Below are positions 48,312 through 64,000 of a DNA stretch of 64,000 bases, in pieces. The notes beneath the pieces are model-generated. The model was not told the origin of the DNA and did not search any database. It was given only the letters and a program-made list of their open reading frames with translations. Source of the stretch: Psychroflexus gondwanensis ACAM 44. Its GTDB lineage: Bacteria > Bacteroidota > Bacteroidia > Flavobacteriales > Flavobacteriaceae. How positions within the stretch are numbered: the first letter of the stretch is position 1; each line of letters starts with the position of its first letter. The stretch covers positions 248,001 to 312,000 of the forward strand of contig NZ_APLF01000003.1 in NCBI RefSeq assembly GCF_000355905.1. Reading direction: 5' to 3'. A program made the translations under genes and the position numbers.

Positions 48312-48428
48312 AAAGAATATGATTACAGCTTAAATTTAGGTCAATATTTTAATTATAGCTAGTATTTATTTAATAATAAATGTACAGATTAATAGCTCAA
48401 GGCTCTATAATAAGTAACATTTTAAAGT

Positions 48429-48821
48429 TTAAATGTCTTTAAGATTTTCGCTTAAGGTGGTAATGAATTTTTTGATAGGATTTTTAATCATCATAGCCAT
48501 CATGCTATTGAACTCACCTTCAAAAATAAGTTGAACTGAAGATTCTCTTTCGTTTACTTCTTCAATTTCTCCCCTTAAGGTGAAAGGGAGTTTATCACTT
48601 GCAGCAGTCAAAAGCACCAGGTGATTTGGCTCTGTCTTCTCTAGTTTTAATTTTATGGTGGGCATTCCTTTAAGTTGAAAAAGGAAGCTATCGGTTGAAA
48701 GCATTTCAAATTTTTCAATACTTTCAGGCATTAATTTTTTAAAGTTTTCTACATTTTTCAAAAATTCAAAAGTCTCTTTCTGACTTTTAGCAATACTTAC
48801 TTTTTCGCTTTCTAGATGCAT
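48429..48821 (-). CDS. SRPBCC (START-like) family protein
   Basis: The 130-residue protein starts HLESEKVSIAKSQKETFEFLKNVENFKKLMPESI, the classic opening of polyketide-cyclase/START-like proteins, with alternating strands and a final helix. Such folds bind lipids or other hydrophobic ligands. It follows pyrE by 3 bp and is co-transcribed with it. No catalytic residue is evident. Confidence 0.85.
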   Translation of the reverse strand: MHLESEKVSIAKSQKETFEFLKNVENFKKLMPESIEKFEMLSTDSFLFQLKGMPTIKLKLEKTEPNHLVLLTAASDKLPFTLRGEIEEVNERESSVQLIFEGEFNSMMAMMIKNPIKKFITTLSENLKDI

Positions 48822-48824
48822 GGT

Positions 48825-49469: not shown

Positions 49470-49474
49470 GTTTA

Positions 49475-49482
49475 CAAATGTA
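49475..49482 (-). promoter_or_regulatory. pyrE -7 box (TACATTTG) overlapping the NUDIX start codon
   Basis: The TAnnTTTG match on the minus strand covers the ATG (49478-49480) of the divergent NUDIX gene and ends 5 bp from the pyrE ATG. The two genes therefore share an 8-bp gap in which promoter and start codon overlap. Confidence 0.5.
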
Positions 49483-50101
49483 TAAAGTTTTCGTGAATGA
49501 CGTGCCAATAATATTATCTACTCAAGAAAATACAGGTTCACACTATATTAATATAAACATTAAAAAGGCTAAAATCAAAAAGCTTATCCATAAGGTTGAA
49601 ACTGGAGAACTCCACTATATCAACCTTTACCATAAGAAAGAGCATAAGCTTTTAAAGCATCTTAAGAAGAAATTGAAAGTAATTGTTGCTGGAGGTGGTT
49701 TGGTCTATAATTCTAAAAAAGAAATTTTATTTATTTATCGCAATAAAAAGTGGGATTTGCCTAAGGGAAAGGCCGAAAAGGGTGAGAATATCGAGGAAAC
49801 TGCTATCCGGGAAGTCGAAGAAGAAACTCAAGTACAAGGCTTGGAGATTGTTAGATTTTTGCAAACCACCTATCATATCATCAATCGTAAGGGAAAATAT
49901 AAGTTGAAAGAGACTCATTGGTATGAGATGAAAACCGACTTCGAGGGGGAACTTATACCTGAAGCTTCCGAGGGCATCAAAAAAGCTAAGTGGAAAAATT
50001 TTGAAAAATCCCAAAAAGCTCTTTTAAAATCTTATGCCAACATCAAATTGTTATTCCCGAAAGAATACTTACTTCAGCACCCTAACGATAGGATAAGTTA
50101 A
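49478..50101 (+). CDS. NUDIX hydrolase
   Basis: The protein has 207 residues. The N-terminal 60 residues are a small alpha/beta extension (YKVFVNDVPIILSTQ...). The Nudix box is GKAEKGENIEETAIREVEEETQV, matching G-x5-E-x7-REVEE but with Gln where the final Gly is usual. It should cleave a nucleoside diphosphate linked to another group; the substrate is unknown. It faces pyrE, an arrangement repeated in flavobacteria, and its 3' end overlaps the convergent M14 gene by 33 bp. Confidence 0.88.
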   Translation: MYKVFVNDVPIILSTQENTGSHYININIKKAKIKKLIHKVETGELHYINLYHKKEHKLLKHLKKKLKVIVAGGGLVYNSKKEILFIYRNKKWDLPKGKAEKGENIEETAIREVEEETQVQGLEIVRFLQTTYHIINRKGKYKLKETHWYEMKTDFEGELIPEASEGIKKAKWKNFEKSQKALLKSYANIKLLFPKEYLLQHPNDRIS

Positions 50102-51808
50102 ATGCGCTTTTTCATAATATTTTGAATGTTTGTGGATCCAATCCAATTGTTGATACCAATTGTTTGCAAATTCGGAATCTGTATTTTGCTTATTTTCAAA
50201 CTCAGCTTGGAGCTTGGGGTTGTTTTCCAAAATTTCAACAGCTAAATCTTCAAACACATAAGGCGAAAAGCCTTCTTTTTGTTGCAAGATAATATCAAAG
50301 AAATTCCAATTGAAAAACGAATCTACAGCCGCCGGTTCTAAAGTTTCAATGATATAGCGTATCCCTGGTTGATTGGTTTTTACCAAAACATCGCCTTGTT
50401 GATACGTTTTGTCAATACTTTCAGCTTCTACTTTAGTCTCAGAATGTAGATAATGGCCTTCATAGGCAGAAGTACGTGTCTTATAATCTATAATCCTATA
50501 TTTTTCAACGCTTACTATGGTATCCTCCGCAAAACGCTCATAGCTTATGTTGTTCCATTTCAAAAGCTCTATCACTTTACTCCACTGTTTGGGGATAATA
50601 TAGGCTTCAGGAATTAAAATGGAATCACTTTGCTTAAAATAATTATAATAAGTCACTTCTCTTTCAAAAGGTTGATCTCTTCTGAATTTGATTCTAGGCA
50701 GCTTAGTGACTTCACTGGTTGAGCTTTCAACTTCGTAACCTAAAAAATTGTATGTGCTGGTTTTTGAAGAATCTACTTCAAAGTTAATGGGGTATACTTG
50801 AGCATTAGCAAATGCTTTAAAATTTTCATCTCTGGCCAATTGTATACTTTCTTTTTGTTGATGAGACACATTCACAAGCGTTTTAAGCATCTCCAAAGTC
50901 CCTTCCACTCTTTGCTTATAAGGTTTTAGCATGTGAGTTTCGATCATTAGACCTAAGGTGTTCCATAAAGTGGTGTAGCCAGTAGAATACCTTGGACTAT
51001 CGTTGAATTGCGAAAATCCTCTTTCTGGACTTGTATTGGATACGTTGACATAGGGCGTAATATCCCAATCCTCAGCTTTAAGACCAGCCTCGACCTTTGG
51101 AATAAATTCATTTTCGAGATGTCGCCCAAGAGCACCTCCCAACTTGTTGTGTTGAGTGAAAAGATGAGTTAATGTATACTGGTAATCTGCACCATTACTC
51201 ACGTGTGTATCGACAAAAACATCAGGATTCACTTGATGGAAAATACTGTAGAAAGCTTTACTGTTTTTGGTATCCGACTTTATAAAGTCCCGGTTCAAAT
51301 CGTAGTTTTTAGCATTACCACGAAACCCGTGGGCTTTAGGGCCATTTTGATTGGTCCTTGAATTGGAATTTCTATTGAGGGCGCCTCCTACATTGTAAAT
51401 GGGAATGGTATAAATTTCTATAGTGGTTGGCAAGGTGGACACATTATTTGAAAACTCCTTAAATAGGAGCATAGTTGCATCAATACCGTCAGACTCACCA
51501 GGGTGAATGCCATTATTAATCAAGACCTTCAAAGGATTTTCTTGGACATCTTTTGGCTTGAAACTTACCAAGTGAAGCGGCTCGCCACTGTCGGTTTCAT
51601 AAATGGACTCTATACTTACCCGATCATCTTTCCCTGCTAAAGATTCGTAAAAGTCTATTACTTCTTGGTAAGTGGAGGTGGAGTCGCCACCAGACCTTTC
51701 ATAAGCAAGGCTAAAATTCGATTCGGTTGCTTCAGAATTGACCGGCTTGGAATCGCTACAGCTGAAAATGAGTAGAACGACACTCAATAAGAGACCATAT
51801 TTGAACAT
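50069..51808 (-). CDS. M14-family zinc carboxypeptidase, lipoprotein
   Basis: The protein has 579 residues from the ATG at 51808, opening a lipoprotein signal FKYGLLLSVVLLIFSC (Cys at about 16). The zinc site is GIHPGESDGIDATM (HxxE) with His in FVDTHVSNGADY, and the catalytic Glu may be in MIETHMLKP. It is an envelope peptidase. It is divergent from a dead TonB-receptor gene, which is a relic of the same pair found again at the right edge of the window. Confidence 0.9.
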   Translation of the reverse strand: MFKYGLLLSVVLLIFSCSDSKPVNSEATESNFSLAYERSGGDSTSTYQEVIDFYESLAGKDDRVSIESIYETDSGEPLHLVSFKPKDVQENPLKVLINNGIHPGESDGIDATMLLFKEFSNNVSTLPTTIEIYTIPIYNVGGALNRNSNSRTNQNGPKAHGFRGNAKNYDLNRDFIKSDTKNSKAFYSIFHQVNPDVFVDTHVSNGADYQYTLTHLFTQHNKLGGALGRHLENEFIPKVEAGLKAEDWDITPYVNVSNTSPERGFSQFNDSPRYSTGYTTLWNTLGLMIETHMLKPYKQRVEGTLEMLKTLVNVSHQQKESIQLARDENFKAFANAQVYPINFEVDSSKTSTYNFLGYEVESSTSEVTKLPRIKFRRDQPFEREVTYYNYFKQSDSILIPEAYIIPKQWSKVIELLKWNNISYERFAEDTIVSVEKYRIIDYKTRTSAYEGHYLHSETKVEAESIDKTYQQGDVLVKTNQPGIRYIIETLEPAAVDSFFNWNFFDIILQQKEGFSPYVFEDLAVEILENNPKLQAEFENKQNTDSEFANNWYQQLDWIHKHSKYYEKAHLTYPIVRVLK

Positions 51809-52087
51809 TAGTATGTCTTTAGAATAAACTTTCATTTATATAATTATTTTTAGGTTAAAAATACACACTTGAGACCTCTTACCATCATCATATTTTTATA
51901 TTCAGGAATAATTTTTTCACAAACTCAAAAAGATACAACTTCTCTAAAGGAAGTTAAATTGAAGACTTCGGTTGAAACGGAGGGGGATTACGAGCAAGAT
52001 GCAAATGTGTCTTTGCTTAATCAAGAAGAGTTATGACAGTCCAACCAAACGACAATCACTTCAATTCTTAATAAAATTCCTGAGGTT
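51637..52087. repeat. Left copy of island-flanking direct repeat (M14/TonB-receptor junction)
   Basis: This stretch covers the first codons of the intact M14 gene, the intergenic gap and the first 70 or so codons of a TonB receptor. It recurs in the same orientation at 63546-64000 with an estimated 85-90% identity by eye, including the same TTG start and the sequence SVLNQEELxQSNQTTIT region of the receptor. The two copies bound the accessory island. Confidence 0.85.
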
Positions 52088-52174
52088 TACATGCAACAAG
52101 GAGGGATCAATACCACCAAAATTAACATTCGGGGTATAGGAGTAAAAACACGTTGGTATTATCGTTGGCTATGA
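51869..52174 (+). pseudogene. TonB-dependent receptor, N-terminal fragment with stop
   Basis: From the TTG at 51869 it reads a signal peptide (LTIIIFLYSGIIFSQTQKD), then KEVKLKTSVETEGDYEQDAN and SLLNQEEL followed by a TGA at 52034. Past that stop the plug domain goes on in frame (TSILNKIPEVYMQQGGI, then INIRGIG), after which homology is lost near 52145. The complete copy is probably the frame at 63781 that leaves the window. It is not functional here. Confidence 0.88.
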
Positions 52175-52355
52175 AGTCGAAGGTTTCTGGGTTGCCTAAA
52201 TAAATAGAAAAAATCAATTAAAAAAGCTCAAAGAATCAGTTTTATGAATCCATGATCCTAGACTACTAGTGTTCCAAATTAAAGTAGAAAAGATTTGTTT
52301 TTTACTTCAGTTTTTTAGTACCTGGTGGCTTTATTCAGATTTCAGCTTATTGCAT
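52175..52355. other. Junction region between dead receptor and island
   Basis: No gene is seen. One frame over the left edge reads IIVGYEVEGFWVA and stops; it may be the tail of some lost gene. Near the end lies a TTGCATT/AATGCAA inverted repeat over the next gene's stop, possibly a weak terminator. Confidence 0.4.
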
Positions 52356-52845
52356 TTAATGCAAACTTATAACTTTAGCCATTTTCCAATCCCCATTATC
52401 ATTATGCCACATTGTAATAAATTTACTTGGTATTGATTCAGTATTAGGTTCTTGGTTATTATAAAATTTATGATATCCTATTTGTACTGCACCATAATTA
52501 TTAATTGGATAAACTTCAAGACTTCCATCTATTAGTTCTCTAGTAACTTTCCCGCAAATATTCCGTTTCGTTCCTTCAATAATTTCTTTTTTGGAGGTCA
52601 TTAAACCTCCTTTATCGTGAAAAAACTCAATATTATCAGAGTAAATCAAAGCCTGTTTTTCCAAATCACAGTTGTTATATGCGTCAAAGAACACTTTATC
52701 CATTGCTTTTATTTCTTCAAATATTTTTTTGTCAATAGGAGTATATTCTCTTTCCTGAGTTGATTTTTTTTTCAGGTCCTGTTTTACACGAAATAAATGA
52801 TATGATTAGAAATAGAATGGCTAACAATTTAATTGAATTTTTCAT
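52356..52845 (-). pseudogene. NTF2/SnoaL-like lipoprotein with a poly-A frameshift
   Basis: From the ATG at 52845 the frame reads a lipoprotein signal (KNSIKLLAILFLIISFISCKTGPEKK) and runs into a stop after a run of nine As (52764-52772 as Ts on the plus strand). With eight As the frame would continue as STQEREYTPIDKKIFEEIKA into the downstream open part (52356-52703), which is a DUF4440/SnoaL-type domain (VFFDAYNNCDLEKQALIYSDNIEFFHD). It is either a frameshifted pseudogene or a slippage-dependent gene. The single-base change is the only visible defect. Confidence 0.75.
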
Positions 52846-53140
52846 ATTTGTTTATTATTAATTCTAGAGGCTGTTTTGTGCTTGCAGGTAATGTTTGGTA
52901 TATAGTTTATTGCGTGTTTAAGCAACTAATTTAGTAAACAAATCACAGATAGAAAATCCCAGCAGTTTCGACACTTCTGGATTCGTAAGCAAGCTAAAGC
53001 TAGAAATAAATTATATACTTCTAAAGTTTGATTTCTAATAAAATACTTAAAGAATAACCTTCAAATACATATTATAGTACCATTATATAGCTAATCAAAG
53101 GCCTTCAACGGCTAATTAATCAACTTGCATTAGAAGAACG
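52846..53140. other. Intergenic region with a diverged element fragment
   Basis: No gene is seen. The sequence from about 53035 to 53181 resembles 57115-57283 (both have a ..AAAGAATA..CC motif and the same 41-bp tail), so it looks like a diverged copy of an internal piece of the IS91-like element described there. Confidence 0.4.
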
Positions 53141-53181
53141 ACAGGTTTGCAAAAAAAAACCTTTGGTTTCACTGTTGGTTT
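53141..53181 (+). repeat. 41-bp exact repeat, copy 1
   Basis: This 41-bp stretch, with nine As in its middle, occurs identically at 57243-57283. Here it runs straight into an IS110 transposase fragment; there it runs into the IS91-like 3' end repeat. Confidence 0.9.
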
Positions 53182-53529
53182 TGATCGGTTCACAAGTGCA
53201 GCAGAATTATGTAGTTACGCAGATCTAACACCAGTCATTAGGCAAAGTGTTAGCAGTGTAAAAAGACGACCTCGAATAAGTAAAATAGACAATCAAAAAC
53301 TTCGTAATTTATTATTTATGTGCAGTTTTAATGCTTGTAAACCTGCCTGCCAGCAGGCAGGTACAACAAGGCTTGTAGAGATCTTTACGAGCGGATAGTA
53401 GCAAAAGGAAAGAGTAAGAAATTAGCATTAGTTATGGTATGTAATAAGCTCTTAAAACAAGCCTTTGCAATTTCAAAGTCAGGGTTGATATATAATAAAG
53501 AATATAAGAGTACTCTAGTTAAAAATTAA
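53177..53529 (+). pseudogene. IS110-family transposase, C-terminal remnant, interrupted
   Basis: The frame begins GFDRFTSAAELCSYADLTP and continues IRQSVSSVKRRPRISKIDNQKLRNLLFMCSFNACK, the C-terminal Transposase_20 domain of IS110/IS1111 elements. At 53342-53361 a 20-bp palindromic insert breaks the frame; without it the protein would read on as YNKACRDLYERIVAKGKSKKLAL to the stop at 53527. The N-terminal DEDD domain is absent. Confidence 0.85.
53341..53362. repeat. 20-22 bp palindromic mini-insertion in the IS110 remnant
   Basis: ACCTGCCTGC and GCAGGCAGGT are perfect 10-bp inverted arms around CA. Removing the 20 bp from 53342 to 53361 restores the IS110 reading frame exactly, so the palindrome was inserted as a unit. 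Pieces of related GCCTGCC.../GGCAGGC sequence appear near 60512 and 62269-62294. Confidence 0.8.
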
Positions 53530-53583
53530 TGAGATTTTTACTTGTTTTTCGCCACAGTACCTTGTTGGCATTTCGTTGTTTTT

Positions 53584-54396
53584 TTAATGATTATTTTCTT
53601 TTTCTATTTGATTTTTTTTATCTCTTATCAAAATTATAAAAACTACAGAAAAAAAGAAACTCGATATTAGAGGTGCAAAAGAATTATTATTTAAATTATT
53701 AAAATCGAATTCAACAATATTTGAAATTAATGTAACAGCACTTAAAATCAAAGCTGTATATAATAAGTACTTTTTCATTCGTAATAATTTATGTTCTTTT
53801 TTTAAAACTTCTTCTTGTAATCTTTCTTTGCTTAAATATCCTGCCTGCCAATTTTCCTCTTTATAACTGAATGAAACTTTTGAATGTTTACTTGTTTTTA
53901 TTTGAGTAATATATTCTGGTAAATCAAATTCCATTTCCTGTAGTTTTGAATGAACCATATCAACTATTTCTTCGGCTAATTGTGCCTTTTCGCTCTGCTT
54001 ATAATTCAGTTCGTCATTTTGTATCGAAATCTGTGCGTAAACATTTGTGTTTGGATATTTTTTTTCAAATTCCTTTTCTGCGTAAGCTAATAATGTTTTT
54101 ATTTTAAAATATCTACTCGCATCTTCAGTTAAAACCTGGGTATGTTCGAGTCCAATTAATTCATTTTTGTATTCGATTATGAAGTCAGGACTTGGTGGTT
54201 TTGGTTTATCCGTTATCCGAATGTTAGTGTCAATTTTATGAACAAATTTTCCAATTTGGCAAATTTCTAAAACCTCCTTTTTTTCAAGCTCATACTTTTC
54301 CAAAATAGGATAGATAATCTTACCTAAATCTTCGTTTTCTTTTTTAAAACTTTCTATTATCCTCTTAATTTCTCCTTTATTTATTTGTATTTTCAT
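53584..54396 (-). CDS. Membrane protein with a possible PD-(D/E)XK-like domain
   Basis: The 270-residue protein has a soluble part (1-205) and two C-terminal helices (LLYTALILSAVTLISNIVEF at about 208-230; LISSFFFSVVFIILI at about 243-258). The soluble part holds SPDFIIEYKNELIGLEHTQVL, where D71 and E84-H85-T86 are spaced like the D...ExT/ExK core of PD-(D/E)XK folds, though the last residue is not Lys. I do not recognise the family. It lies between an IS110 remnant and an attC-like spacer in the island. A nuclease role is only a hypothesis. Confidence 0.6.
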   Translation of the reverse strand: MKIQINKGEIKRIIESFKKENEDLGKIIYPILEKYELEKKEVLEICQIGKFVHKIDTNIRITDKPKPPSPDFIIEYKNELIGLEHTQVLTEDASRYFKIKTLLAYAEKEFEKKYPNTNVYAQISIQNDELNYKQSEKAQLAEEIVDMVHSKLQEMEFDLPEYITQIKTSKHSKVSFSYKEENWQAGYLSKERLQEEVLKKEHKLLRMKKYLLYTALILSAVTLISNIVEFDFNNLNNNSFAPLISSFFFSVVFIILIRDKKNQIEKENNH

Positions 54397-54413
54397 TGGT
54401 TTTTTTTAGCTGG

Positions 54414-54560
54414 CGCACAACGGTCTTGGTTAAGGCAAGTAGCGTGGAGTAGGGACGCGTTCTTTTCGGCTTTGTTGTTTGTTACTTGGTGTCTAAAATA
54501 ATACTTTTTACTCAAATGCCCGCTATTTGCGCTTAACCGATGTTGGTGGCTGGTTTTTAG
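54414..54560. repeat. attC-like imperfect inverted-repeat spacer
   Basis: The spacer between two island genes starts GCGCACAACGGTCTTGGTTAAG and ends CTTAACCGATGTTGGTGGC, which pair imperfectly over about 19 bases. It contains GCTTAAC, which fits the RYYYAAC core box of integron attC sites, but the opposite box is one base off the consensus. It resembles spacers often seen between small accessory genes in flavobacterial genomes (from memory). No integron integrase is present in the window. Confidence 0.45.
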
Positions 54561-54611
54561 TTGTTAGCTTATTTGTTAATTCAATTATTAACATTTTTTC
54601 CAAATATTATA

Positions 54612-55469
54612 CTAATAACGGTCAACTTCTAAATAAAAACTTAAATTTCTATTAGCAGATTTCCATTGAGACATTCCTTTTTCTCTGTAATACTGTGTAT
54701 CTAATGGATTTATACTACCTGGGATTGAAAAAAACTTACTTTGGGTAGTTTTCTTTTTACTTTCCAACCACTGAATAGTAACGGCAAAACTTCCTAACTC
54801 TTCTTTTAAATAAATATCATAACGTCTTAAATCAACTTTAAACCAATCTGATTGAATATTTTCCACATCAAAAATAATATTTTTATCGTTTAATAATTCA
54901 AGAGGTTCATTATTTTCTATTCGGTATACATTCAATCTAAACTTTATTGAATTATATTCATTCTGTCCTATATAAAAATTTAAACTGTTAACACGATAAT
55001 CTCCTTTTAAGTTAAATCTCATACCAACTTCTTTCCCTAATCTGTCATCTTGTTTTTCTCCCGCTATATAGAAATTGTACCACATAGTTCCAGTTCCTTT
55101 GTGGTTTCTTCCTAATATTTTCCTTTTTGGCTTTTTACTAGATAAAACAACTTCTGATAATTGGTCAATATGTGGTGTCATTTCAATCTTAACCTTACTA
55201 TTTGAAAAAGATGAAATCTTTATCAATTTTGATTCATAACCAATAAATGAAAATTGCAAACTATCATTCGGTTTTACATTTTTATTTAAACGAAGATTAA
55301 AATATCCATCTTTATTAGAAACAGTGCCAATATTAGTTTTTGGTATTCCAATATTGACATAAGGTAGCTCTAATTTGGTTTCGGCATCAATTATTTTTCC
55401 TTGGATGCTGTTTTGTGCATAGTTAAATGCACTTATAAGAATAAATGAGATTAAAAATGTTTTCTTCAT
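54612..55469 (-). CDS. Exported protein with a carboxypeptidase-regulatory-like (CarboxypepD_reg) domain
   Basis: The 285-residue protein has a signal peptide (TFLISFILISAFNYAQ) and an N-terminal beta-sandwich (IQGKIIDAETKLELPYVNIGI...TVSNKDGYFNLRL...FSFIGYESKLIKI) of the CarboxypepD_reg type that usually precedes TonB-receptor or surface domains. The remaining 160 residues are beta-rich with no motif I know. It may be a surface or periplasmic binding protein. An IS4 element sits 38 bp upstream of its start. Confidence 0.78.
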   Translation of the reverse strand: MKKTFLISFILISAFNYAQNSIQGKIIDAETKLELPYVNIGIPKTNIGTVSNKDGYFNLRLNKNVKPNDSLQFSFIGYESKLIKISSFSNSKVKIEMTPHIDQLSEVVLSSKKPKRKILGRNHKGTGTMWYNFYIAGEKQDDRLGKEVGMRFNLKGDYRVNSLNFYIGQNEYNSIKFRLNVYRIENNEPLELLNDKNIIFDVENIQSDWFKVDLRRYDIYLKEELGSFAVTIQWLESKKKTTQSKFFSIPGSINPLDTQYYREKGMSQWKSANRNLSFYLEVDRY

Positions 55470-55507
55470 TCTAAATAATTTGTTGTATTAATATTAAAAA
55501 TCATTAA

Positions 55508-56881
55508 TGTCCGGTAAAAACTAATTTCCAGGATTTACCATTTGTATTTATTTGATAATCAGTCATATGAGTTTCTGGATCTCATAATTTTGAAAATAAG
55601 GTATCAAAAAAAGGATAATTGTTCACTTTCAGTTTTCGTTATAATCCAATCTTTTTCTGGGTTTTCTAAAAAACTCATCAGGTTTATATAGTTAAAAAGA
55701 TGAATCTTACAAAAGCTGACAAGGTTTGAAAATGACCAGCTCCTTTTTAGTTTCTTCTTTATCACAGTGATCAATAAGTTGACTATCAATACACAGTATA
55801 TCTGTATTTTAATAGCGTTTTCATTATCCCCTAAAAAATATTTCAAAGGGAAGTTCTGTTTTAACTGTTTGAACAAGGTCTCTATCTGCCACCTTATTTT
55901 ATAGAGGGCAGCAATCAAATCGGCCCTGAGCTCGAATAGATTTGTTAGGAATTCAAATTCCCGTTTGTTTTTCCTATCATAAAACCTCACCTTCCTCAAC
56001 TTAAGTGTTCTATCACTATCCTTTCCCTTTACCACAACCTCTATAATATCATCCTGTAGGACCCCGCTGTGTATAAAATCTTCCACTGCTAGTGCCTCAA
56101 TTTCTTTGTAATCTGCATTATTCTTTATTCTGGTCACAAACACTGTCCCGTGATCTGTAAAATTCTCAAAAGCCTTATAATCATTGTACCCTTTGTCAAA
56201 TACATAAATGCTATTATCATCACATTTGAGCTTTTCCAGGAAATTATGATCGTGTGTTGCCGCAGGGCTGAACCATACTAGGTTGGGCACTGTTTCATCC
56301 GCATTTATAACAGAATGTACTTTGATCCCACCTTTCCTTTTGCCATCTTTTGGGGTTCTCCCTACACATTTTAAAATGTCCTTGAAAAGGCTAATTGTGC
56401 TGCTATCCACAATTTTCACCTGTTTATCTAAAACTTCTTTAATCCGGCTGTCCGATAAAACCTTACCATATTGCTCCAACATTCTATGATATATATTTTC
56501 AAAAAATTCGACCTTTCTGGTTTTATTTGCATCAGAAAGAGTGCTCCTTTTTGGAATATGGTTTAGTTTAAAATGTGCTGTCTTACCAGAGAGACCAAGC
56601 ATTGCTCCAGAAACCTCCCTTAATGAATTACACTTGGCAAAGGAACAGAACAACATACTTATCAAGTGGTCCCTGGTCATAAACTTCTTTACATATCGGT
56701 CAGAATCACACTTCTTGACCTCTTCTTTTATTGTTTTATCATCAATTAAAGAAATCAGCTGTCCGAAAACAGATTTACCCGAAAAATAATTACTTTTAGC
56801 CATCGTATTTATTGTTTTGCAACTCCAAATTACGATTTCTAAGGAGAAGTCATTCGTGGCTTCTCTTTTTTTTACCGGACA
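55508..56881 (-). mobile_element. IS4-family insertion sequence, apparently complete
   Basis: The 1374-bp element has 13-bp perfect inverted ends TGTCCGGTAAAAA (55508-55520) and TTTTTACCGGACA (56869-56881) around one full transposase gene. No target-site duplication is visible: the flanks read CATTAA on the left and CTACTGA on the right. It lies between the CarboxypepD_reg gene and the B1 repeat. Confidence 0.9.
55604..56803 (-). CDS. IS4-family DDE transposase
   Basis: The 399-residue protein begins with a DUF4372-type N-terminus (YFSGKSVFGQLISLIDD). The DDE triad is D123 (KIVDSSTISLF), D193 (VFDKGYNDYKAF) and E298. The C-terminal YREK signature Y-x2-R-x3-E-x6-K is met at Y291, R294, E298 and K305 (KIRWQIETLFKQLKQN). 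It is intact and is probably active or recently active. Confidence 0.95.
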   Translation of the reverse strand: MAKSNYFSGKSVFGQLISLIDDKTIKEEVKKCDSDRYVKKFMTRDHLISMLFCSFAKCNSLREVSGAMLGLSGKTAHFKLNHIPKRSTLSDANKTRKVEFFENIYHRMLEQYGKVLSDSRIKEVLDKQVKIVDSSTISLFKDILKCVGRTPKDGKRKGGIKVHSVINADETVPNLVWFSPAATHDHNFLEKLKCDDNSIYVFDKGYNDYKAFENFTDHGTVFVTRIKNNADYKEIEALAVEDFIHSGVLQDDIIEVVVKGKDSDRTLKLRKVRFYDRKNKREFEFLTNLFELRADLIAALYKIRWQIETLFKQLKQNFPLKYFLGDNENAIKIQIYCVLIVNLLITVIKKKLKRSWSFSNLVSFCKIHLFNYINLMSFLENPEKDWIITKTESEQLSFF

Positions 56882-56938
56882 CTACTGATTAAAAATATAT
56901 TTTATAACTGTTTGAATACAGGCATAATGTTAAACTTG

Positions 56939-57069
56939 CCACCAACGTAAGGATAATTCAACAAGTTGTGTTATACTTATTTTATTGATGGTATAAACTT
57001 AGTGATTTTTTTATGGTCTTAAAAGTATTAACATTAAAAGCATGCTTTAATAAACGGTGAAATCTGGAG
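56939..57069 (+). repeat. Repeat B, copy 1 (candidate 5' end of an IS91-like element)
   Basis: This 130-bp block (ACGTAAGGATAATTCAACAAG... TAAACGGTGAAATCT) recurs at 58335-58465 in the same orientation with few differences. It has short hairpin arms near its left end (in copy 2, CACAAC and GTTGTG). It is followed at a distance by repeat A, in the order expected of the two ends of one element. Confidence 0.75.
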
Positions 57070-57242
57070 GGTTATTAACACAAATCTTAAATCACAATAG
57101 TAAAGTACATTCTATTATAAATGCTCAAAGAATAGCCACCAAACACCTATTAAAATTCTGTTTTATGGCTACTATAATAGGAAAATCATTAGTTGATTAA
57201 TGGTTTCAAATTGCTCTACAATCACCTTGGATTAGGAGATTA

Positions 57243-57283
57243 ACAGGTTTGCAAAAAAAAACCTTTGGTTTCACTGTTGGTTT
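57243..57283 (+). repeat. 41-bp exact repeat, copy 2
   Basis: Identical to 53141-53181. Here it is followed by repeat A copy 1. Confidence 0.9.
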
Positions 57284-57290
57284 AACCGTA

Positions 57291-57545
57291 GGTTATCAAG
57301 TTTAAATTTCCCATTTTACCTAGATAGGTAGAAGAAATTATAACAAAATGCAATCTCCCCAAAAAGGACATCCTTTAGATAACCAACTGAATAAAAAGGT
57401 ATGCAAAGCACTCTAAAAACTACCTTATCCTCTTGTAAGGTTCTTGCCAACTCATCGAATTACCCGTTATTTAAAAATACCGGATCAGTCAACAAATCAT
57501 ATAGCGTTGGGCTATCGGCACGCCATATGCTTAGTTATTGTGCCA
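57291..57545 (+). repeat. Repeat A, copy 1 (candidate IS91 3' end)
   Basis: About 255 bp sharing the conserved blocks GATAACCAACTGAATAAAAAGG, CTTGCCAACTCATCGAATT, CAGTCAACAAATCATATAGCG and CGGCACGCCATATGCTTAGTT with copies at 60284-60566 and 62107-62343. It ends about 114 bp from the stop codon of the minus-strand lipoprotein gene. Confidence 0.85.
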
Positions 57546-57658
57546 CGTTTTTTTTAACAATTATAGATTTGATTTCAATTACTAATAAATTAAAAAAATT
57601 CCATTCACAAAAATCTGAAATGATTTTCATAAATAGAATTTTAAGAACTATTAAACGA

Positions 57659-58249
57659 CTAATAATTTTTTTTTAAAAGTACTTGTATTTGACAACCATC
57701 GCTAGTAGTTAAAATCAAACTTGCATCCGGACATCCACAATTGTAATGGTCAGGTCCAGGTTGAGACCATCCACAACAACTACCATTACATACATAAGAT
57801 ACTCTTGAAGATAAGTCAGCATTTAATGTTTGGCTCTTAATGTTTAAAATTTTAGACTCATCAATATTTTCAATTGAAGATTTCTTATCTAATTTATTTA
57901 AATATATATTATCATTATCTATAAAAAGTGAATAATTTTCATTCACTAATAGTGGCACGAACATCGAGCTATTTGAATCTTTATTTAAAAAATCTACTAT
58001 TGCAAACGAACCTGTTTCATTTTCATTATATCTTACATTGCTTATAGTCAAATCATTTATATTAATAATATTAGAATTATTAATTATAATTTCTTTCAAT
58101 TGTTCTGTTGATTTAGCCAATATATTACCGTTTGGTGATTCTAATTTGAAATTTAAGTTTTCATCTTCAGATGATTTTTCTTCATTACTGCAAGCAAATA
58201 AAGCTATACTTATGAAGAAAACGGACATTAATTTTGTTATTGCTTTCAT
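57659..58249 (-). CDS. Lipoprotein with a cysteine-rich C-terminus, unknown function
   Basis: The 196-residue protein has a lipobox (SIALFAC, C20), an Asn-rich beta-prone middle and a tail with six cysteines (VCNGSCCGWSQPGP, NCGCP, DGCQI). The tail could form disulfides or bind metal, but no named domain was recognised. The gene is bracketed by repeat A on its 3' side and repeat B on its 5' side, and by inverted GTGCCAC (57540-57546) and GTGGCAC (58333-58339). Very low GC suggests a different origin from the oxidoreductase next door. Confidence 0.7.
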   Translation of the reverse strand: MKAITKLMSVFFISIALFACSNEEKSSEDENLNFKLESPNGNILAKSTEQLKEIIINNSNIININDLTISNVRYNENETGSFAIVDFLNKDSNSSMFVPLLVNENYSLFIDNDNIYLNKLDKKSSIENIDESKILNIKSQTLNADLSSRVSYVCNGSCCGWSQPGPDHYNCGCPDASLILTTSDGCQIQVLLKKNY

Positions 58250-58334
58250 GCTATATTTATCTGAGTTAATGATATCAAAATATATTTTTTATTCTAATTA
58301 TCCTTAAATAAATGCAATAATTTTTTTTAAATGT

Positions 58335-58465
58335 GGCACAACGTAAGGATAATTCAACAAGTTGTGATATCCCCATTTTATTGTTAGTATAAACTTAGTG
58401 ATTTTTTATGGTCTTAAAAGTATTAACATTAAAAGCATGCTTTAATAAACGGTGAAATCTCGGAG
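58335..58465 (+). repeat. Repeat B, copy 2
   Basis: Second copy of the block at 56939-57069. It starts CACAACGTAAGGATAATTC, and its first 30 bases can fold with CACAAC and GTTGTG as arms. It lies upstream of the oxidoreductase gene. Confidence 0.75.
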
Positions 58466-58653
58466 ATAATTAATCTACCTCTCAAGCCAGCCATAGCGCT
58501 GGAGTTTTTATTTGCTTCATTAATGAGTGAGTAACCCAATGTAGTTGTTGTTCTTAAAATAGAGTTACAATGATAAGTCGCACAGTCTGTTACATATAAG
58601 TTTTGAGATTTCTTTCACAGTTTATAACCATAACTTTATGTAGCTTTAAAATT

Positions 58654-59994
58654 ATGAAAAAATATGATGTTTTTGTGTTCGGAACCGGTATCGCAGGTAA
58701 GGTAGTTGCGAGAAATTGCGCGCAGGCTGGGCTAGCAGTCGCTATTATAGATACTCGAGAATATGGGGGAACCTGCTCGCAGCGAGGCTGCGACCCTAAA
58801 AAAATCATGCTCGCACCCATAGAGGCTTACGAGCATGCCAGCAAACTGCATGGTTACGGAATCGCAACTATGCCGGTGCTAGATTTTGGACAAATACACC
58901 AGTATGCAAAGAAATACACACAAGGTATCCCTGCAAAAACAGAGAAACAGCTGCAGGATGACGGCATTGCCTGTTACCGCGGTGAGGCTATTTTTAAAAA
59001 CCCGCACACGGTTACCCTAAACAAAACCGATATATACGCAAAAACCTTTGTAATTGCTACGGGTTTAATTACGCGACCCTTAACTATTCCTGGTGCCGCG
59101 TTTCTAAAGGAATATGACGATTTTTTTAAACTGCTAAAAGCACCAGAAAAGGTGGTTTTTATAGGAGGCGGTTACATAGCCTTAGAATTTGGCCACATGC
59201 TCGCTAGAGCTGGCTCTAAGGTGGCCATTATAGAAACAGGCAATCGCATTTTAAAGAATTTTGAAGAATCTGTCACATTAAAATTACAAAAAATAACCGA
59301 AGACTTGGGCGTTGATATTATTCTTAACGCACGAGCATCGTCCGTAGAAACGATAAATGGTCGTTATGTCGTTAATTATGGTAAAGAAGACGGCATACAT
59401 CAGGTAACCGCAAGTGAGGTCTTTAATACCTCTGGTCGTATACCGGCAGTTAAATCGTTAAAGCTAGAACTTGCAGGCGTAGTCACATCTAAAACAGGTG
59501 TTGTGGTTAACGAGTTTATGCAAAGTATTTCACAACCGCACATCTATGCCTGCGGCGATGTGTCGTCTATGGGCTTGCCCTTAACACCGCTAAGCGGTTT
59601 ACAGGCAACCATAGTTGCAAATAATATTTTAGGGAAAAAAGAAGAACTACAATTACCTTCAATTCCTAGCGCTGTTTTTACGATACCGCAACTCGCAACG
59701 ATAGGTCTTACCGAAAAACAAGCATTACAGCAAGGTCACAAAATCACGGTTTTAGAAAATGATGCAAGCAACTGGTTTAATGTCCGCCGTATTAAAAGTG
59801 ACGGTTACCAGTATAAAATCATTCTAGAAAAAGAAACAGAAGCAATTCTGGGTGCTCACATCATGGGAGCAGCGGCAAGTGACCAAATTAATATGTTTGC
59901 AATAGCCATAAAAGCAGGCATGAACATGGAGGACCTTAAGAGCACCATATTCACATACCCTAGTTGGGGCAACGATATTTTAAGTTATAAATAA
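58654..59994 (+). CDS. NAD(P)/FAD-dependent disulfide-reductase-like oxidoreductase
   Basis: The protein has 446 residues from the ATG at 58654. It has the FAD site YDVFVFGTGIAGKVVARNCA, the redox-active pair GGTCSQRGCDPKK (C41, C46), the NAD(P) site VVFIGGGYIALEFGHMLARAGSKV and the second FAD contact HIYACGDVSS. The C-terminal His-Glu dyad of glutathione reductase is missing (TIFTYPSWGNDI), as in several uncharacterised bacterial relatives. Its substrate is unknown. Base composition is clearly more GC-rich than its neighbours, which fits horizontal transfer. Confidence 0.9.
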   Translation: MKKYDVFVFGTGIAGKVVARNCAQAGLAVAIIDTREYGGTCSQRGCDPKKIMLAPIEAYEHASKLHGYGIATMPVLDFGQIHQYAKKYTQGIPAKTEKQLQDDGIACYRGEAIFKNPHTVTLNKTDIYAKTFVIATGLITRPLTIPGAAFLKEYDDFFKLLKAPEKVVFIGGGYIALEFGHMLARAGSKVAIIETGNRILKNFEESVTLKLQKITEDLGVDIILNARASSVETINGRYVVNYGKEDGIHQVTASEVFNTSGRIPAVKSLKLELAGVVTSKTGVVVNEFMQSISQPHIYACGDVSSMGLPLTPLSGLQATIVANNILGKKEELQLPSIPSAVFTIPQLATIGLTEKQALQQGHKITVLENDASNWFNVRRIKSDGYQYKIILEKETEAILGAHIMGAAASDQINMFAIAIKAGMNMEDLKSTIFTYPSWGNDILSYK

Positions 59995-60085
59995 ACGGCT
60001 AAGGTGCTTCATTAACCTACTTGAAAAAATTCGTGCAAATAACTACCGATACCGGATAAATCACCTAGTAAACAACGCTCTAAAC

Positions 60086-60253
60086 TTATACGTGAAGCGT
60101 TCTAAGACGGGCAAACACCCCTTTTAAAATTGCATCAGGACCAAAGTAGGGATTGCCATCTGCAAGCGAATTATTTTCAGCTTTTTTCCATTCGATTTTA
60201 GGATGCATTAACCCAAGGACAGTTGGCATATCGCCAGTTGCAAAACCATTGGT
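60086..60253 (-). pseudogene. NTF2/SnoaL-like gene fragment
   Basis: The minus strand reads NGFATGDMPTVLGLMHPKIEW and then ADGNPYFGPDAILKGVFARL, followed by a stop at 60086-60088. This is the N-terminal third of a SnoaL/ketosteroid-isomerase-like protein. Upstream the frame runs into an 11-bp tandem repeat with stops, and downstream the rest is missing. Confidence 0.75.
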
Positions 60254-60288
60254 TCACCATTGGTTCACCATTGGTTCACCATTGGTTA
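60245..60288. repeat. Tandem repeat, 4 x 11 bp (ACCATTGGTTC)
   Basis: Four units of ACCATTGGTTC, the last ending in A, lie at the junction between the NTF2-like fragment and repeat A copy 2. Each unit holds the near-palindrome ACCATTGGT. Confidence 0.9.
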
Positions 60289-60566
60289 TAAAGTTGAAAA
60301 TTTCCGTTATACCTAGATAGATAGAAGGAAAACACAATAAAAAGCAATCACCCTTAAAAGCAACTCCTTAAGATAACCAACTGAATAAAAAGGGATAAAA
60401 CCACTCTAAAATCAACCTTCTCCTGTTGTAAGGTTCTTGCCAACTCATCGAATTCCCCTTTACCAGCAATCCCGAATCAGTCAACAAATCATATAGCGGA
60501 CTCCACTGGGCCTGCCTGTCGAAGTGTTGGCCTATCTATCGGCACTCCATATTCTTAGTTGTTGCC
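60284..60566 (+). repeat. Repeat A, copy 2 (candidate IS91 3' end)
   Basis: Matches copies 1 and 3, with an extra GACTCCACTGGGCCTGCCTGTCGAAGTG-like insert after ATATAGCG. It ends CTTAGTTGTTGCC only 14 bp from the YoeB stop codon. Confidence 0.85.
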
Positions 60567-60579
60567 TGAAGTACTTTTT

Positions 60580-60837
60580 TCAGTCGTAATGAAATCTACA
60601 TTTCGCAATTAATATTTCTCCTTCTTCATATTGGTAAATCAGTCTATGTTCACTATCAGTTCGTCTTGACCAAAATCCTGCGTATTTATGTTTTAAAGGT
60701 TCAGGCTTTCCTATTCCGTCAAAAGGAGTGCGAGAGATGTCTTTCAGGAGTTCATTTATTTTCTTCAGCTTTTTTTTATCTGTTTTTTGCCAGTACAAAT
60801 AGTCCTCCCAAGACTCATCCACAAATATAAACTTCAT
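60580..60837 (-). CDS. yoeB: YoeB-type mRNA interferase toxin
   Basis: The 85-residue protein fits YoeB in length and register. Catalytic E46 (GKPEPLK), R65 (EHRLIY) and H83 (RFHYD) fall at the same positions as in E. coli YoeB, and WSRRTDSEHR is conserved. It cleaves mRNA at the ribosomal A site. Its ATG directly follows the antitoxin stop (TAAATG). Confidence 0.95.
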   Translation of the reverse strand: MKFIFVDESWEDYLYWQKTDKKKLKKINELLKDISRTPFDGIGKPEPLKHKYAGFWSRRTDSEHRLIYQYEEGEILIAKCRFHYD

Positions 60838-61092
60838 TTAATTTTCGATTAAGTCTTTGTTGAAAGTCAATCCGTTCTTTAGCTTGTCAATTGCAGAATC
60901 TAGTCTTAATTCATTCTTTCGAGATGACAATTCGTGATTTGTAGCCATTAAAGAATTATATTCTTGCAGAGACATAACTACAATTCCAGAATCTTTTCCG
61001 CGATTTATAATTAAAGTCTCGTAGTTCTTTACAACTCGGTCTAAGTAGGTCTTAATATCTTTTCTAAAATCAGAAACAGTTGTTATTTGCAT
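60838..61092 (-). CDS. yefM: YefM/Phd-family antitoxin
   Basis: The protein has 84 residues from the ATG at 61092 (QITTVSDFRKDIKTYLDRVVKNYETLIINR, then GIVVMSLQEYNSLMAT). This is the Phd/YefM DNA-binding fold with a toxin-wrapping C-terminal tail. It neutralises YoeB and should repress the operon. The upstream region has GTACA-type half sites flanking a -7 box. Confidence 0.93.
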   Translation of the reverse strand: MQITTVSDFRKDIKTYLDRVVKNYETLIINRGKDSGIVVMSLQEYNSLMATNHELSSRKNELRLDSAIDKLKNGLTFNKDLIEN

Positions 61093-61109
61093 AATATTGT
61101 ATTTAATAA

Positions 61110-61127
61110 AGTACAAATATATGTACA
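61110..61127 (-). promoter_or_regulatory. YefM-YoeB promoter/operator
   Basis: AGTACA (61110-61115) and TGTACA (61122-61127) flank the minus-strand -7 box TATATTTG (61114-61121), 22 bp before the yefM ATG. TGTACA is the known core of the YefM operator in E. coli, so autorepression is likely. Confidence 0.6.
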
Positions 61128-61194
61128 AAATATGACTTACGCAGTTTTTTGTATTTTGAGTAGCGTTTTGTTCACACCTTGTTTTTACAGGTAT

Positions 61195-61450
61195 TCAGGC
61201 AAGCTTAATGTCACTCATTCTTGCATCTATATTAGCAATTTGTTTTTGAAGTTCTATGACATTTCTCTTTCTTTTTTGGTCAAGATAACCATAAACAGTA
61301 AGAGGATTATAATGTTGTCTTTTGTAGAGCATATTCCAAAGTTTAGTGGCTAATTTTCTTGCAGTAGTAGAAACAGCCCTTCCTTTTCTGTAGGCTATTT
61401 TGTTGTAGAAATTACGAAAGGCACTTCCCCAATTACCACAATCTTTATAT
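61195..61450 (-). pseudogene. IS110-family transposase, C-terminal remnant
   Basis: The minus strand reads YKDCGNWGSAFRNFYNKIAYRKGRAVSTTARKLATKLWNMLYKRQHYNP, the end of an IS110-type Transposase_20 domain, and stops at 61195. The frame upstream of about 61450 is the reverse of an IS91 piece and not part of this gene. Only the last 80 or so residues survive. Confidence 0.7.
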
Positions 61451-62008
61451 GATAAGTTGTTCAAAAAAGAGTGGGTGGTATATGCCAAACCTCCTTTTGG
61501 AAAACCAGAACATGTGATTGAATATTTAGGTAGGTACATTCAACCCGTTACAAATTATCACTTAAAAGCAATTTAAATTTGTAACGAGGCAAATAAAATA
61601 GCGATAAATAACCACCATATCTTGTCGATTGATAAAGAAAAAAGGAGGATTACATTTAGTTTAAAAGACTATAGAAAAGGGAAGCAAAAAACCACACTAT
61701 TACCCTACACTAAGGAGTTTATAAGGCGTTTTCAACTCCATATTCTTTCCAAAGGCTTTACTCGAATAAGGCATTATGGATTTTTGAGTAGCAGTTGGAA
61801 AAAAGAAAAGTTACCGCTATTACAACTTCAATTAAGAGATAAAAACTTGGCACACATTGTAACCTTTGCTACTCAACAGAAATCCTTACATCGCTGTTGT
61901 CCGAGTTGTAAAAAGGAAACCTTGATCACACTTTTTACCTTTGACAGTCGCGGTCCTCCAAAGGATTACAAAAAAATTATAAAGGATAAACTGGAATGCA
62001 AACATTAA
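61451..62008 (+). pseudogene. IS91-family transposase, C-terminal remnant with a palindromic insert
   Basis: One frame reads YDKLFKKEWVVYAKPPFGKPEHVIEYLGRYI and, after an insert of about 50 bp, KIAINNHHILSIDKEKRRITFSLKDYRKGKQKTTLLPYTKEFIRRFQLHIL, then KGFTRIRHYGFLSSSWKK, CPSCKKETL and a stop at 62006-62008. This is the second half of a Y2-type IS91 transposase. The 5' half, with the HUH motif, is gone. Confidence 0.88.
61544..61590. repeat. Palindromic mini-insertion in the IS91 remnant
   Basis: CGTTACAAATT (61546-61556) and AATTTGTAACG (61576-61586) are perfect 11-bp inverted arms around about 19 bases. The block lies between GRYI and KIAIN of the IS91 transposase, where homologues have only one or two residues, so it was inserted. 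Confidence 0.7.
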
Positions 62009-62106
62009 AAAAAAAACGGTTCTAAAAAGAGCCTTGACTTACCAGTGCCCAAACTGAAGAAATATGATAAAAAACAGCAGATTCTCACACAAAAAAAGGA
62101 TTGATC

Positions 62107-62343
62107 TACCTAAAAAGCACCTTAATTTAGATAACCAACTGAATAAAAAGGGATGCAAAGCACTCTAAAAAAGACCTTCTCCTCTTGTAAGGTTCCTGCC
62201 AACTCATCGAATTCCCCCTTACCAGCAATCCCGGATCAGTCAACAAATCATATAGCGGACTCCACTGAGCCTGTTTGTATTGCCTTGGCAGGCCTGTCGA
62301 AGTGTTGGCCTATCGGCACGCCATATGCTTAGTTGTTATGGCT
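62107..62343 (+). repeat. Repeat A, copy 3, behind the IS91 transposase remnant
   Basis: Starts 98 bp after the IS91 transposase stop and matches repeat A copies 1 and 2 through GATAACCAACTGAATAAAAAGG, CCTGCCAACTCATCGAATT and CATATGCTTAGTTGTT. It ends 7 bp from the stop of the antitoxin gene. Its place identifies repeat A as the likely IS91 3' end (oriIS side). Confidence 0.85.
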
Positions 62344-62350
62344 AGTTATT

Positions 62351-62848
62351 TTATATACTTTCTTCCATTAGTCTTTTGGAAAGTTCCTCTTTTTTATCAT
62401 CATCAATAGAGTCACATAATTGAATGTATTGATATATAATATCTTTATTATTCAAACACATCTTTATTAATCTACCACTAGATAAAGAAGTAATTCCCTC
62501 ATTTTCAATATTAGAAATAGTGTTTTTACTAAAACCTAATACAATACTAAATGTAGATGCAGGGATTCTATACCTTTTCCTAAAACTAATTATTTCACTT
62601 GGTGAAGCCGCTCCTTTTGCAATAAGATAAGCATTTTTGAGTGCTTTCATATTGCGGTCTATTTGATTTTTAGTATAATATTTTACCTTTTTGGTTTTAT
62701 TAATTTTACCAGTATCCTCATTTACTTCATAATCTAAATAATACACTTCAGTATATTCTAGTTTTATTCCTTTAAATGTTTTCTCAATAGAATTATATAG
62801 TTCACTAGTAGGCTTATTTTCTCTTGTTAATACTTTTTTAGCTTCCAT
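62351..62848 (-). CDS. HTH antitoxin of an MqsRA-like module
   Basis: The 165-residue protein has an N-terminal part (LTRENKPTSELYNSIEKTFKG...VYYLDYEVNEDTG) and a C-terminal Xre/MqsA-type helix-turn-helix (SPSEIISFRKRYRIPASTFSIVLGFSKNTISNIENEG). There is no zinc-binding CxxC pair as in E. coli MqsA. It lies 4 bp downstream of the likely toxin gene, the toxin-first order used by mqsRA. It should bind the palindromic promoter upstream of the toxin. Confidence 0.75.
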   Translation of the reverse strand: MEAKKVLTRENKPTSELYNSIEKTFKGIKLEYTEVYYLDYEVNEDTGKINKTKKVKYYTKNQIDRNMKALKNAYLIAKGAASPSEIISFRKRYRIPASTFSIVLGFSKNTISNIENEGITSLSSGRLIKMCLNNKDIIYQYIQLCDSIDDDKKEELSKRLMEESI

Positions 62849-62852
62849 AATA

Positions 62853-63233
62853 TTAGTTTTTAAAAGGTTGAGTCATTGGATAGTTAGGTATGTGATTCGA
62901 AAAAAGTAATATCTGTAACCCCTTGACTTCCAGTCCGTACTTTAAATAAATCTCCACAGTATCCTCTCCTACAGATGTACAAAATGCACACACGTTAAAA
63001 TCAGCTCTTCCTGACGGGTCAATTCCTCTGTAATAATTATCTGTTGTTAAATCCATAACTGCAGACTCAATATCAGTAGCATCAATATCGAATTCAAGCA
63101 CTAAATCTCCCAATTCAGAACTTGCTTTTCCCGTAAAGGTTATATCAACACCATCCGAAATTCTTTTCTTGGTTTCATCGATAAATTTTTGTATTACTGC
63201 TATATTATTAACTGTATATGTTAATTCTGTCAT
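62853..63233 (-). CDS. MqsR-like toxin candidate
   Basis: The 126-residue protein ends LTTDNYYRGIDPSGRADFNVCAFC...VEIYLKYGLEVKGLQILLFSNHIPNYPMTQPF, which resembles the C-terminal half of MqsR-family toxins (a ..LT..DYYRGPEPD..., then YIKL... and a final FH..EYPM.YPF pattern). The first half is poorly conserved. MqsR is an mRNA interferase that cuts at GCU. Gene order, spacing of 4 bp to an HTH gene and the palindromic promoter support a toxin-antitoxin pair. Family assignment is from memory of the pattern. Confidence 0.65.
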   Translation of the reverse strand: MTELTYTVNNIAVIQKFIDETKKRISDGVDITFTGKASSELGDLVLEFDIDATDIESAVMDLTTDNYYRGIDPSGRADFNVCAFCTSVGEDTVEIYLKYGLEVKGLQILLFSNHIPNYPMTQPFKN

Positions 63234-63264
63234 AGAACCTCAATTAACTTATTTAATATTGAAG

Positions 63265-63320
63265 CAAATGTACAAAAATCATTCCGTATTCCCAACCATT
63301 AGGAATACGGAATGATTTTT
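63265..63320 (-). promoter_or_regulatory. Promoter and 19-bp palindromic operator of the MqsRA-like module
   Basis: A -7 box TACATTTG (63265-63272, minus strand) is followed upstream by a perfect inverted repeat AAAAATCATTCCGTATTCC (63274-63292) and its complement (63302-63320) with a 9-nt centre. The repeat covers the -33 area, so a bound HTH antitoxin would block transcription. The T-rich ends would also allow terminator action. Confidence 0.6.
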
Positions 63321-63545
63321 TAATGTGGTTTATTTAAAAGGAAAGTATTTAGAGAATGGAAGTCATTTGGGTAATGTGGTACAATGTTAACCCTAAAAAT
63401 AGTGACATTTAAAGATAACAATTTTCTGGTCATTATTTTTAAGACATCCTAGGGGTTGTTTTTTTACAAAAATTGGTTTTGAATGTGATTGATTTAAAAA
63501 TAACTGGCGTATTCAAATTCATGCCATAAGTAAACCCGCTTTTTT
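63321..63545. other. Non-coding region at the right edge of the island
   Basis: No gene, long repeat or strong hairpin was recognised. It contains AATGTGGTACAATGTTAACCC, loosely like the attC-type spacers, and then runs into the right copy of the flanking repeat. Confidence 0.4.
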
Positions 63546-63742
63546 CTAAGATTCATCAAAGTCTATTACCTCTAAGAAAGTGGAGGTGGAGTCGCCACCA
63601 GACCTTTTATAAGAAAGGCTAAACTTTGATTCGATTGACTTCAGAATTGATGGCTTTGGAATCGCTTAAGCTGAAAATGAGGAGAACGACACTCAATAAG
63701 AGACAATATGTCAACATTAGTATTTCTTTAGAATAAATTTTC
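63546..63742 (-). pseudogene. 5' remnant of an M14 peptidase gene (right copy)
   Basis: On the minus strand it reads LTYCLLLSVVLLIFSLSDSKAINSEVNRIKV and stops. It is homologous to the start of the intact M14 lipoprotein at 51808, but the lipobox Cys is replaced by Leu and the frame breaks soon after. The rest of the gene is absent. Confidence 0.85.
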
Positions 63743-63780
63743 ATCTATATAACTACTTTTGGGGCTAAAAAAAAACACAC

Positions 63781-64000
63781 TTGAGATATCTTACCATCAT
63801 CCTATTTTTATATTCAGGAATAATTTTTTCACAAACTCAAAAAGATACCACCTCTCTACAGGAAGTTAAATTGAAGACTTCGGTTGAAATGGAGAGGGAT
63901 TACCAGCAAGACGCCAATGTGTCTTTGCTTAATCAAGAAGAGTTATTACAGTCCAACCAAACGACAATCACTCCAATTCTTAATAAAATTCCTGGAGTGT
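63781..64000 (+). CDS. TonB-dependent receptor, N-terminal part (truncated by window)
   Basis: From a TTG start (an upstream in-frame stop at 63766 excludes earlier starts) it reads a signal peptide LTIILFLYSGIIFSQTQKD, then QEVKLKTSVEMERDYQQDAN, SLLNQEELLQSNQT and PILNKIPGV, the start of the plug domain. No stop occurs before the window edge, unlike the left copy. It is probably the functional receptor of the M14/receptor pair, importing a ligand across the outer membrane. Confidence 0.8.
   Translation, partial: MRYLTIILFLYSGIIFSQTQKDTTSLQEVKLKTSVEMERDYQQDANVSLLNQEELLQSNQTTITPILNKIPGV

Follow-up and report, generated by a model that had tools for sequence, protein, structure and literature searches.

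The window analysed here is a stretch of 64,000 nt of Psychroflexus gondwanensis ACAM 44 (contig C3, positions 248001-312000, of the genome denoted G000). It carries an accessory island enclosed by two direct copies of the junction between a peptidase gene and a TonB-receptor gene. From its sequence, we conclude that this island is probably an integron-like array of gene cassettes located in the duplicated junction. The integron-type nature of the cassettes does not appear in the initial annotation of the window and is the larger find. In our view, the system would be an integron-like platform run by an integrase of the Xer type, of which the window would hold an integrase-less array; its activity is predicted. 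In this platform, a cassette would consist of one or two genes followed on the 3' side by an attC-like site with an outer box reverse-complementary to the start of the same cassette. The anatomy of the sequence, the complementarity of own ends and the linkage between recombinase and cassettes across genomes are described below as they were observed.

Cassette ends match their own starts

Most genes of the island are on the minus strand, with a dispersed repeat after the stop codon (Table 1). The cassettes share one orientation, with the site after the gene, the exceptions being the gene at 58603-59994 and some genes for which no site was recognised. In most cassettes, the first bases after the G/TT junction resemble the reverse complement of the last bases of the same cassette, e.g. 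GTTGGCGGG with CCCGCCAAC. In the cassette 57659-58249, the start (GTTGTGCCACATTT, 58329-58342) and the reverse complement of the end (AAACGTGGCACAAT, within 57534-57550) differ by 2 mismatches. The cassette 54612-55469 is split by an insertion sequence (IS) of the IS4 family, and its start (GTTGGTGGC, 56935-56946) nevertheless matches its own end (GCCACCAAC) over nine bases. Such complementarity between start and end is expected if each cassette was once a circle recombined at G/TT.

We compared own ends with the ends of other cassettes in two sets. Among 18 curated cassettes, own ends agreed at 5.2 of 9 variable positions, vs. 2.75 when the ends of different cassettes were paired (0 of 200,000 permutations). 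These cassettes were anchored by hand on the repeat arms, with anchors picked after the sequences had been seen, and cassettes with an end that could not be placed were omitted. The second set was found by patterns fixed before the new loci were viewed. From 22 loci of other arrays, this search yielded 10 pairs, with 4.9 agreements vs. 2.7 (11 of 100,000 permutations). The ends of one of these 10 pairs are identical to those of a curated cassette, and one of the 22 loci (L063) had been used in deriving the patterns and yielded none of the pairs. In addition, the inner arms (L''/L') were complementary at 9 or more of 10 positions in 12 out of 26 sites, vs. 3.5% when arms were swapped between sites (means of 7.65 and 6.68, respectively).

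IS110-family relics were found in two repeats of the island, and nearly full-length IS110 frames (337 and 308 aa) in other arrays, which fits the lengthened repeats; many attC-like sites of the island are lengthened by such relics. When positions 48000-64000 were searched against Rfam, nothing was found at E 1 or below.

Further attC-like repeats are present elsewhere in the same genome (L061 on contig C27, L063 at C3:20001-40000, and L156-L164). Several of them lie at contig ends, and the draft assembly therefore probably hides part of the arrays. The clearest array is that of contig C27 (L061), with ten genes on one strand and nine arm motifs. By our own reading, two of its cassette genes are TIR/SEFIR-type-like (L061:6468-7367) and Fic-like (3552-4535), a possible defence cargo.

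A tyrosine recombinase precedes cassettes in many genomes

The array of the window has no integrase alongside. The same genome encodes a Xer-type tyrosine recombinase on another contig (C5:904-2040), which would insert and excise the cassettes. In the single-contig genome G010, the first cassette downstream of the recombinase gene is a gene bounded by GTTGTAAAACATTT and AAACGTTTTACAAC; after it come an attC-like hairpin and another cassette of the same kind. The layout on contig C5 is the same: an attI-like start at GTT lies downstream, and then a cassette whose two ends match.

We examined 35 recombinase loci, which were the best-scoring matches and not a random draw, and 28 of them (genus and family, C5 included) had at least 900 nt downstream. 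A cassette start was found within 420 nt on the 3' side of the recombinase gene in 19 of the 28, vs. 127 of 2000 control windows; on the upstream side, used as another control, a pair was found in 6 of 61. In an earlier version, based on searching for a motif, a position could be assigned in 12 of 30 loci, being downstream in 9 of these 12 and upstream in 2. The consensus over the 19 first cassettes is TTTATAC...GTTR for the start and YAAC..GTATA for the end. In the outer boxes of all 19, a fixed A faces a fixed C and interrupts their complementarity, as if a mismatch were kept. Moreover, a contig end lies within 5 kb of the recombinase gene at 34 of 51 places on its 3' side and at 7 of 41 on its 5' side, as expected if repeats follow the recombinase.

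Integrons are tied to IntI, an integrase with an extra domain. In the genus, sampled here by 27 Psychroflexus (Flavobacteriaceae) genomes, the best IntI-like protein is the tyrosine recombinase, detected at E 1e-30 in 22 genomes and in none of 14 control genomes. Five of these recombinases were scanned (ORFs, i.e. open reading frames, of 375-593 aa). The best NCBIfam model was NF040815 ("site-specific tyrosine recombinase/integron integrase") for three, two of which exceed its cut-off of 220, and TIGR02249 for the other two. With the IntI model TIGR02249, all five scored 188-227 bits, under its cut-off of 265. The best PDB match is 4a8e (1.5e-37). The catalytic motifs, found in 33 of 36 loci submitted, are spaced by 91-92 aa, vs. 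93 counted in 4a8e and a manual count of about 134 in IntI4 (2a3v); by our count on the alignment, the recombinase of contig C5 is about 43 residues shorter than IntI4 between these motifs. In a survey of the family with one genome per genus, the recombinase was found in 100 of 149 genera at E 1e-40, and in a survey of the class in 85 of 149. At four loci, a small Cys-rich, zinc-finger-like protein is encoded divergently to the recombinase gene (L066:2180-2539, L177:8018-8377, L178:13733-14110 and L181:1237-1614), possibly a part of the platform.

Evidence against an integron-like array, and an improbable alternative origin of the repeats

Several results weigh against this integron-like reading. 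When ends were compared with no anchoring, the signal was weak over 39 genes (own 8.15 vs. 7.73; 259 of 20,000 permutations) and absent from the array of the closest relative (G025) taken separately (7.83 vs. 7.78). Three curated cassettes score below the other pairs: orf53584 of this island (1 of 9), C27_5635 (2) and G25_3454250 (1). Fold energies compared with shuffled sequences are not uniformly low, with z of -0.77, -3.03 and -1.70 for three sites, the third covering part of a site. As for the linkage, 9 of the 28 loci have no pair by the rule applied, including the integrase loci of G025 and G016, and at the level of the class a pair was found in 6 of 21 loci only. In G016, no pair is obtained by this rule from the first cassette, and a second pair is visible by eye (13 of 14). 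In the island itself, the oxidoreductase gene opposes the orientation of the array and its own site was not recognised. Finally, no protein of the 27 genomes reaches the TIGR02249 cut-off, and the IntI-specific domain is missing from the recombinase; passages of PMC9668308 describe a domain at the same place as necessary for integron recombination. A classical IntI in the genus was rejected, none being over the cut-off. As two defining features of the integrase are lacking, we use the name "integron-like" and regard the system as a variant.

The repeats could also be mere relics of IS110- or IS91-type elements left by one-ended transposition, the uniform gene order having arisen by chance. Relics of IS110 and IS91-like elements are indeed present in the repeats and in the island. 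However, this explanation predicts neither that the start of a gene should match its own end better than the ends of others, nor a tie to one recombinase across many genera, and we hold it to be very improbable. The agreement of each cassette's end with its start led us to reject the spread of IS91 or IS110 as the sole source of the repeats.

Comparison with known systems

Like chromosomal integrons and clusters of attC sites lacking integron integrases (CALIN), the arrays have cassettes mostly in one orientation, sites with outer (R) and inner (L) boxes and a G/TT junction. The start site just after the recombinase gene, the toxin-antitoxin genes and the IS110-type elements in the sites are also shared. 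Unlike that of integrons, the recombinase lacks the IntI-specific domain, scores under the IntI cut-off and reads toward the cassettes, and the R box is YAAC/GTTR, with its fixed A opposite the fixed C. The window contains several attC-like sites and no neighbouring integrase, and may correspond to a CALIN, for which IntegronFinder requires two or more attC sites lacking an integrase nearby. The recombinase resembles XerA-type and NF040815 proteins by its best model and its catalytic spacing, but differs from them in being extended by some 90 or more residues at the N-terminus and in its position before cassettes.

The IS110-family elements and relics within attC-like arrays recall the IS1111-attC group of this family, known members of which target attC according to passages of PMC11187229. 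The host phylum differs. Integrons have previously been reported in Bacteroidota in parts of PMC8618304 and PMC9668308, and as intI genes in a part of PMC2426708; a passage of PMC9024848 assigns 93% of complete integrons to gammaproteobacteria.

The duplicated junction and its origin

The two junction copies (51640-52145 and 63548-64057, the latter extending past the window in the contig) align directly over 510 columns with 89% identity (BLAST E 0.0), and their starts are 11.9 kb apart. The initial annotation had described two half-dead gene pairs around mobile and accessory DNA, and this layout was confirmed. On the left, the peptidase ORF is open (588 aa), and the receptor copy is interrupted by a single in-frame TGA and breaks off near codon 95. 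On the right, the peptidase is a remnant, in which residues 1-37 and 28-67 are matched in two frames and the lipobox Cys is replaced by Leu. The right receptor has an open frame of 687 aa, which starts with a TTG at 63781 and stops in the contig with a TAA, the last base of which is 65844. It is thus full length past the window edge and not broken soon after it, with plug and beta-barrel Pfam domains within the stretch scanned. One intact peptidase and one intact receptor therefore lie about 12 kb apart, as had been proposed. The M14 label of the peptidase is supported by its predicted fold and by no sequence match: the predicted structure (mean pLDDT, the predicted local distance difference test, of 72.8) resembles M14-type metallo-carboxypeptidases, 3k2k being matched by Foldseek with E 4.9e-10 and a TM-score by query of 0.34, with no Pfam or NCBIfam match and no PDB sequence match at 0.01 or better.

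We then compared this locus with 20 fetched loci. In nine of them, which are close Psychroflexus loci (L037-L045), the genes for orotate phosphoribosyltransferase, NUDIX, peptidase and receptor are consecutive, with nothing in between and no island. The receptor was detected in 18 of the 20 loci (not in L048 and L050), and it likewise adjoins the peptidase in some more distant loci (L046, L047 and L053-L055; 35-46% identity). By a DNA search of the 27 genomes, of which 14 gave some match and 13 none, two junction-length copies were found only in G000. G025 has a single junction copy, in which the receptor adjoins a remnant of the peptidase (about residues 1-128). To the left of this remnant, at the same place as the island, an array (3452-3499 kb, some 45 kb long) has the same repeats and contains the antitoxin cassette of the window twice. 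The C-terminal end of the G025 peptidase is found inverted at 95 kb, beside a NUDIX gene, so that this locus was rearranged in G025. At G025:C1:95138-101615 and 3449448-3451101, about 60 kb lying between rocD and the peptidase in G000 is gone, and the breakpoints share a 141-bp element (82%).

The array would have settled at or near the peptidase/receptor junction, and either a duplication or a recombination between arrays would then have left one half-pair on each side. The initial annotation favoured a tandem duplication of the peptidase-receptor pair that lost its middle, with accessory DNA inserted; the cassettes would then have come second. This account is possible, if somewhat short of an even chance, and is one of two fair readings. 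The two direct copies around the island, with the left peptidase and the right receptor intact, agree with it, as do the nine relatives with one adjacent pair and no island. However, an intact tandem pair was seen in none of the 27 genomes (13 of which have no DNA match to the junction), protein search showed no second full peptidase of the same type, and G025 has one junction copy despite a related array at the same place.

The age of the copies relative to G025, which also bears on a tandem duplication, was examined by site counts and a tree. Among sites polarised by three outgroups, 13 group left with right, 9 right with G025 and none left with G025. The tree joins the right copy to G025 (support 84/81), and the approximately unbiased test rejects neither left with right (p-AU 0.33) nor left with G025 (p-AU 0.08). 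The alternative is that two alleles recombined, the receptor gene of one and the peptidase gene of the other being occupied by an array, or that a circle bearing cassettes together with 510 bp of junction was inserted by a single crossover; we also consider it possible, at slightly less than even chances. Both half-pairs would arise in one step, with no need for a tandem stage. Recognised array repeats lie 17 nt (left) and 48 nt (right) from the junction copies, the G025 array ends in the peptidase gene with an intact receptor alongside, and the left/right identity (89%) is not above that of right and G025 (89%). Nevertheless, an array in the receptor was seen in no genome, and site patterns by gene part show no switch point. 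In the flanks, identity to G025 is 81-95% for the left blocks and 91-96% for the right blocks past the junction (54% for a last, gapped block), and reveals no clear foreign block. Recombination between array repeats or insertion of a circle by a single crossover would explain the layout equally well as a tandem duplication.

Features of the island

Table 1. Features of the peptidase/receptor junctions and of the island between them (window positions)
Feature	Position	Strand	Remark
Intact lipoprotein peptidase, M14 carboxypeptidase-like fold	50069..51835	-	open ORF; predicted fold
Left junction copy	51640..52145	.	receptor part with in-frame stop, ends near codon 95
Type A attC-like repeat closing the array	52163..52350	-	17 nt from receptor fragment
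Cassette gene, DUF4440	52356..52703	-	G025 copy longer (162 aa); by our reading, apparent frameshift in the start region
attC-like region with antisense IS110-family transposase relic (53087-53398)	52860..53574	-	left limit approximate
Cassette gene, no family match	53584..54396	-	
Short attC-like site: CCACCAAC - GGTTAAG ... CTTAACC - GTTGTGC	54409..54553	-	
Cassette gene, CarboxypepD_reg-like domain	54612..55469	-	
IS4-family insertion sequence, 30-nt inverted repeats (83%)	55491..56898	-	inside the 54612-55469 cassette
Long attC-like repeat, arms and IS110 relic (57190-57283)	56935..57550	-	recurs in G000 and G025
Cassette gene, lipoprotein-like	57659..58249	-	
Pyridine nucleotide-disulphide oxidoreductase	58603..59994	+	opposite to array orientation
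attC-like repeat after YoeB	60256..60579	-	
YefM-YoeB toxin-antitoxin genes	60580..61128	-	probably a cassette, start not recognised
IS91-like relic, C-terminal part of transposase	61398..62008	+	71 bits, under cut-off of 125
attC-like repeat	62086..62354	-	
Two-gene cassette, MqsA-like antitoxin (under cut-off)	62351..63233	-	twice in G025 array, 92-93% identity
Cassette start (ATTGTACC) and repeat DNA common to G025	63370..63499	-	48 nt from right peptidase fragment
Right junction copy	63548..64000 (to 64057 in contig)	.	peptidase about residues 1-67, Cys lost; receptor open

Significance

The Flavobacteriaceae, and perhaps much of the class, may with about an even chance harbour an overlooked integron family, the Xer-type recombinases of which never had, or have lost, the IntI domain thought essential for folded attC sites. 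Repeats lengthened by IS110 would break draft assemblies and so hide the arrays. If this is true, the family would be a sister lineage of integrons, or else cassette capture would have arisen a second time in it. A cassette platform without the IntI domain in many flavobacterial genera would extend cassette capture beyond its currently known range, and would help to explain the clustering of accessory genes in such arrays, where many assemblies end. The question of the origin of integrons from Xer recombinases would then become directly testable.

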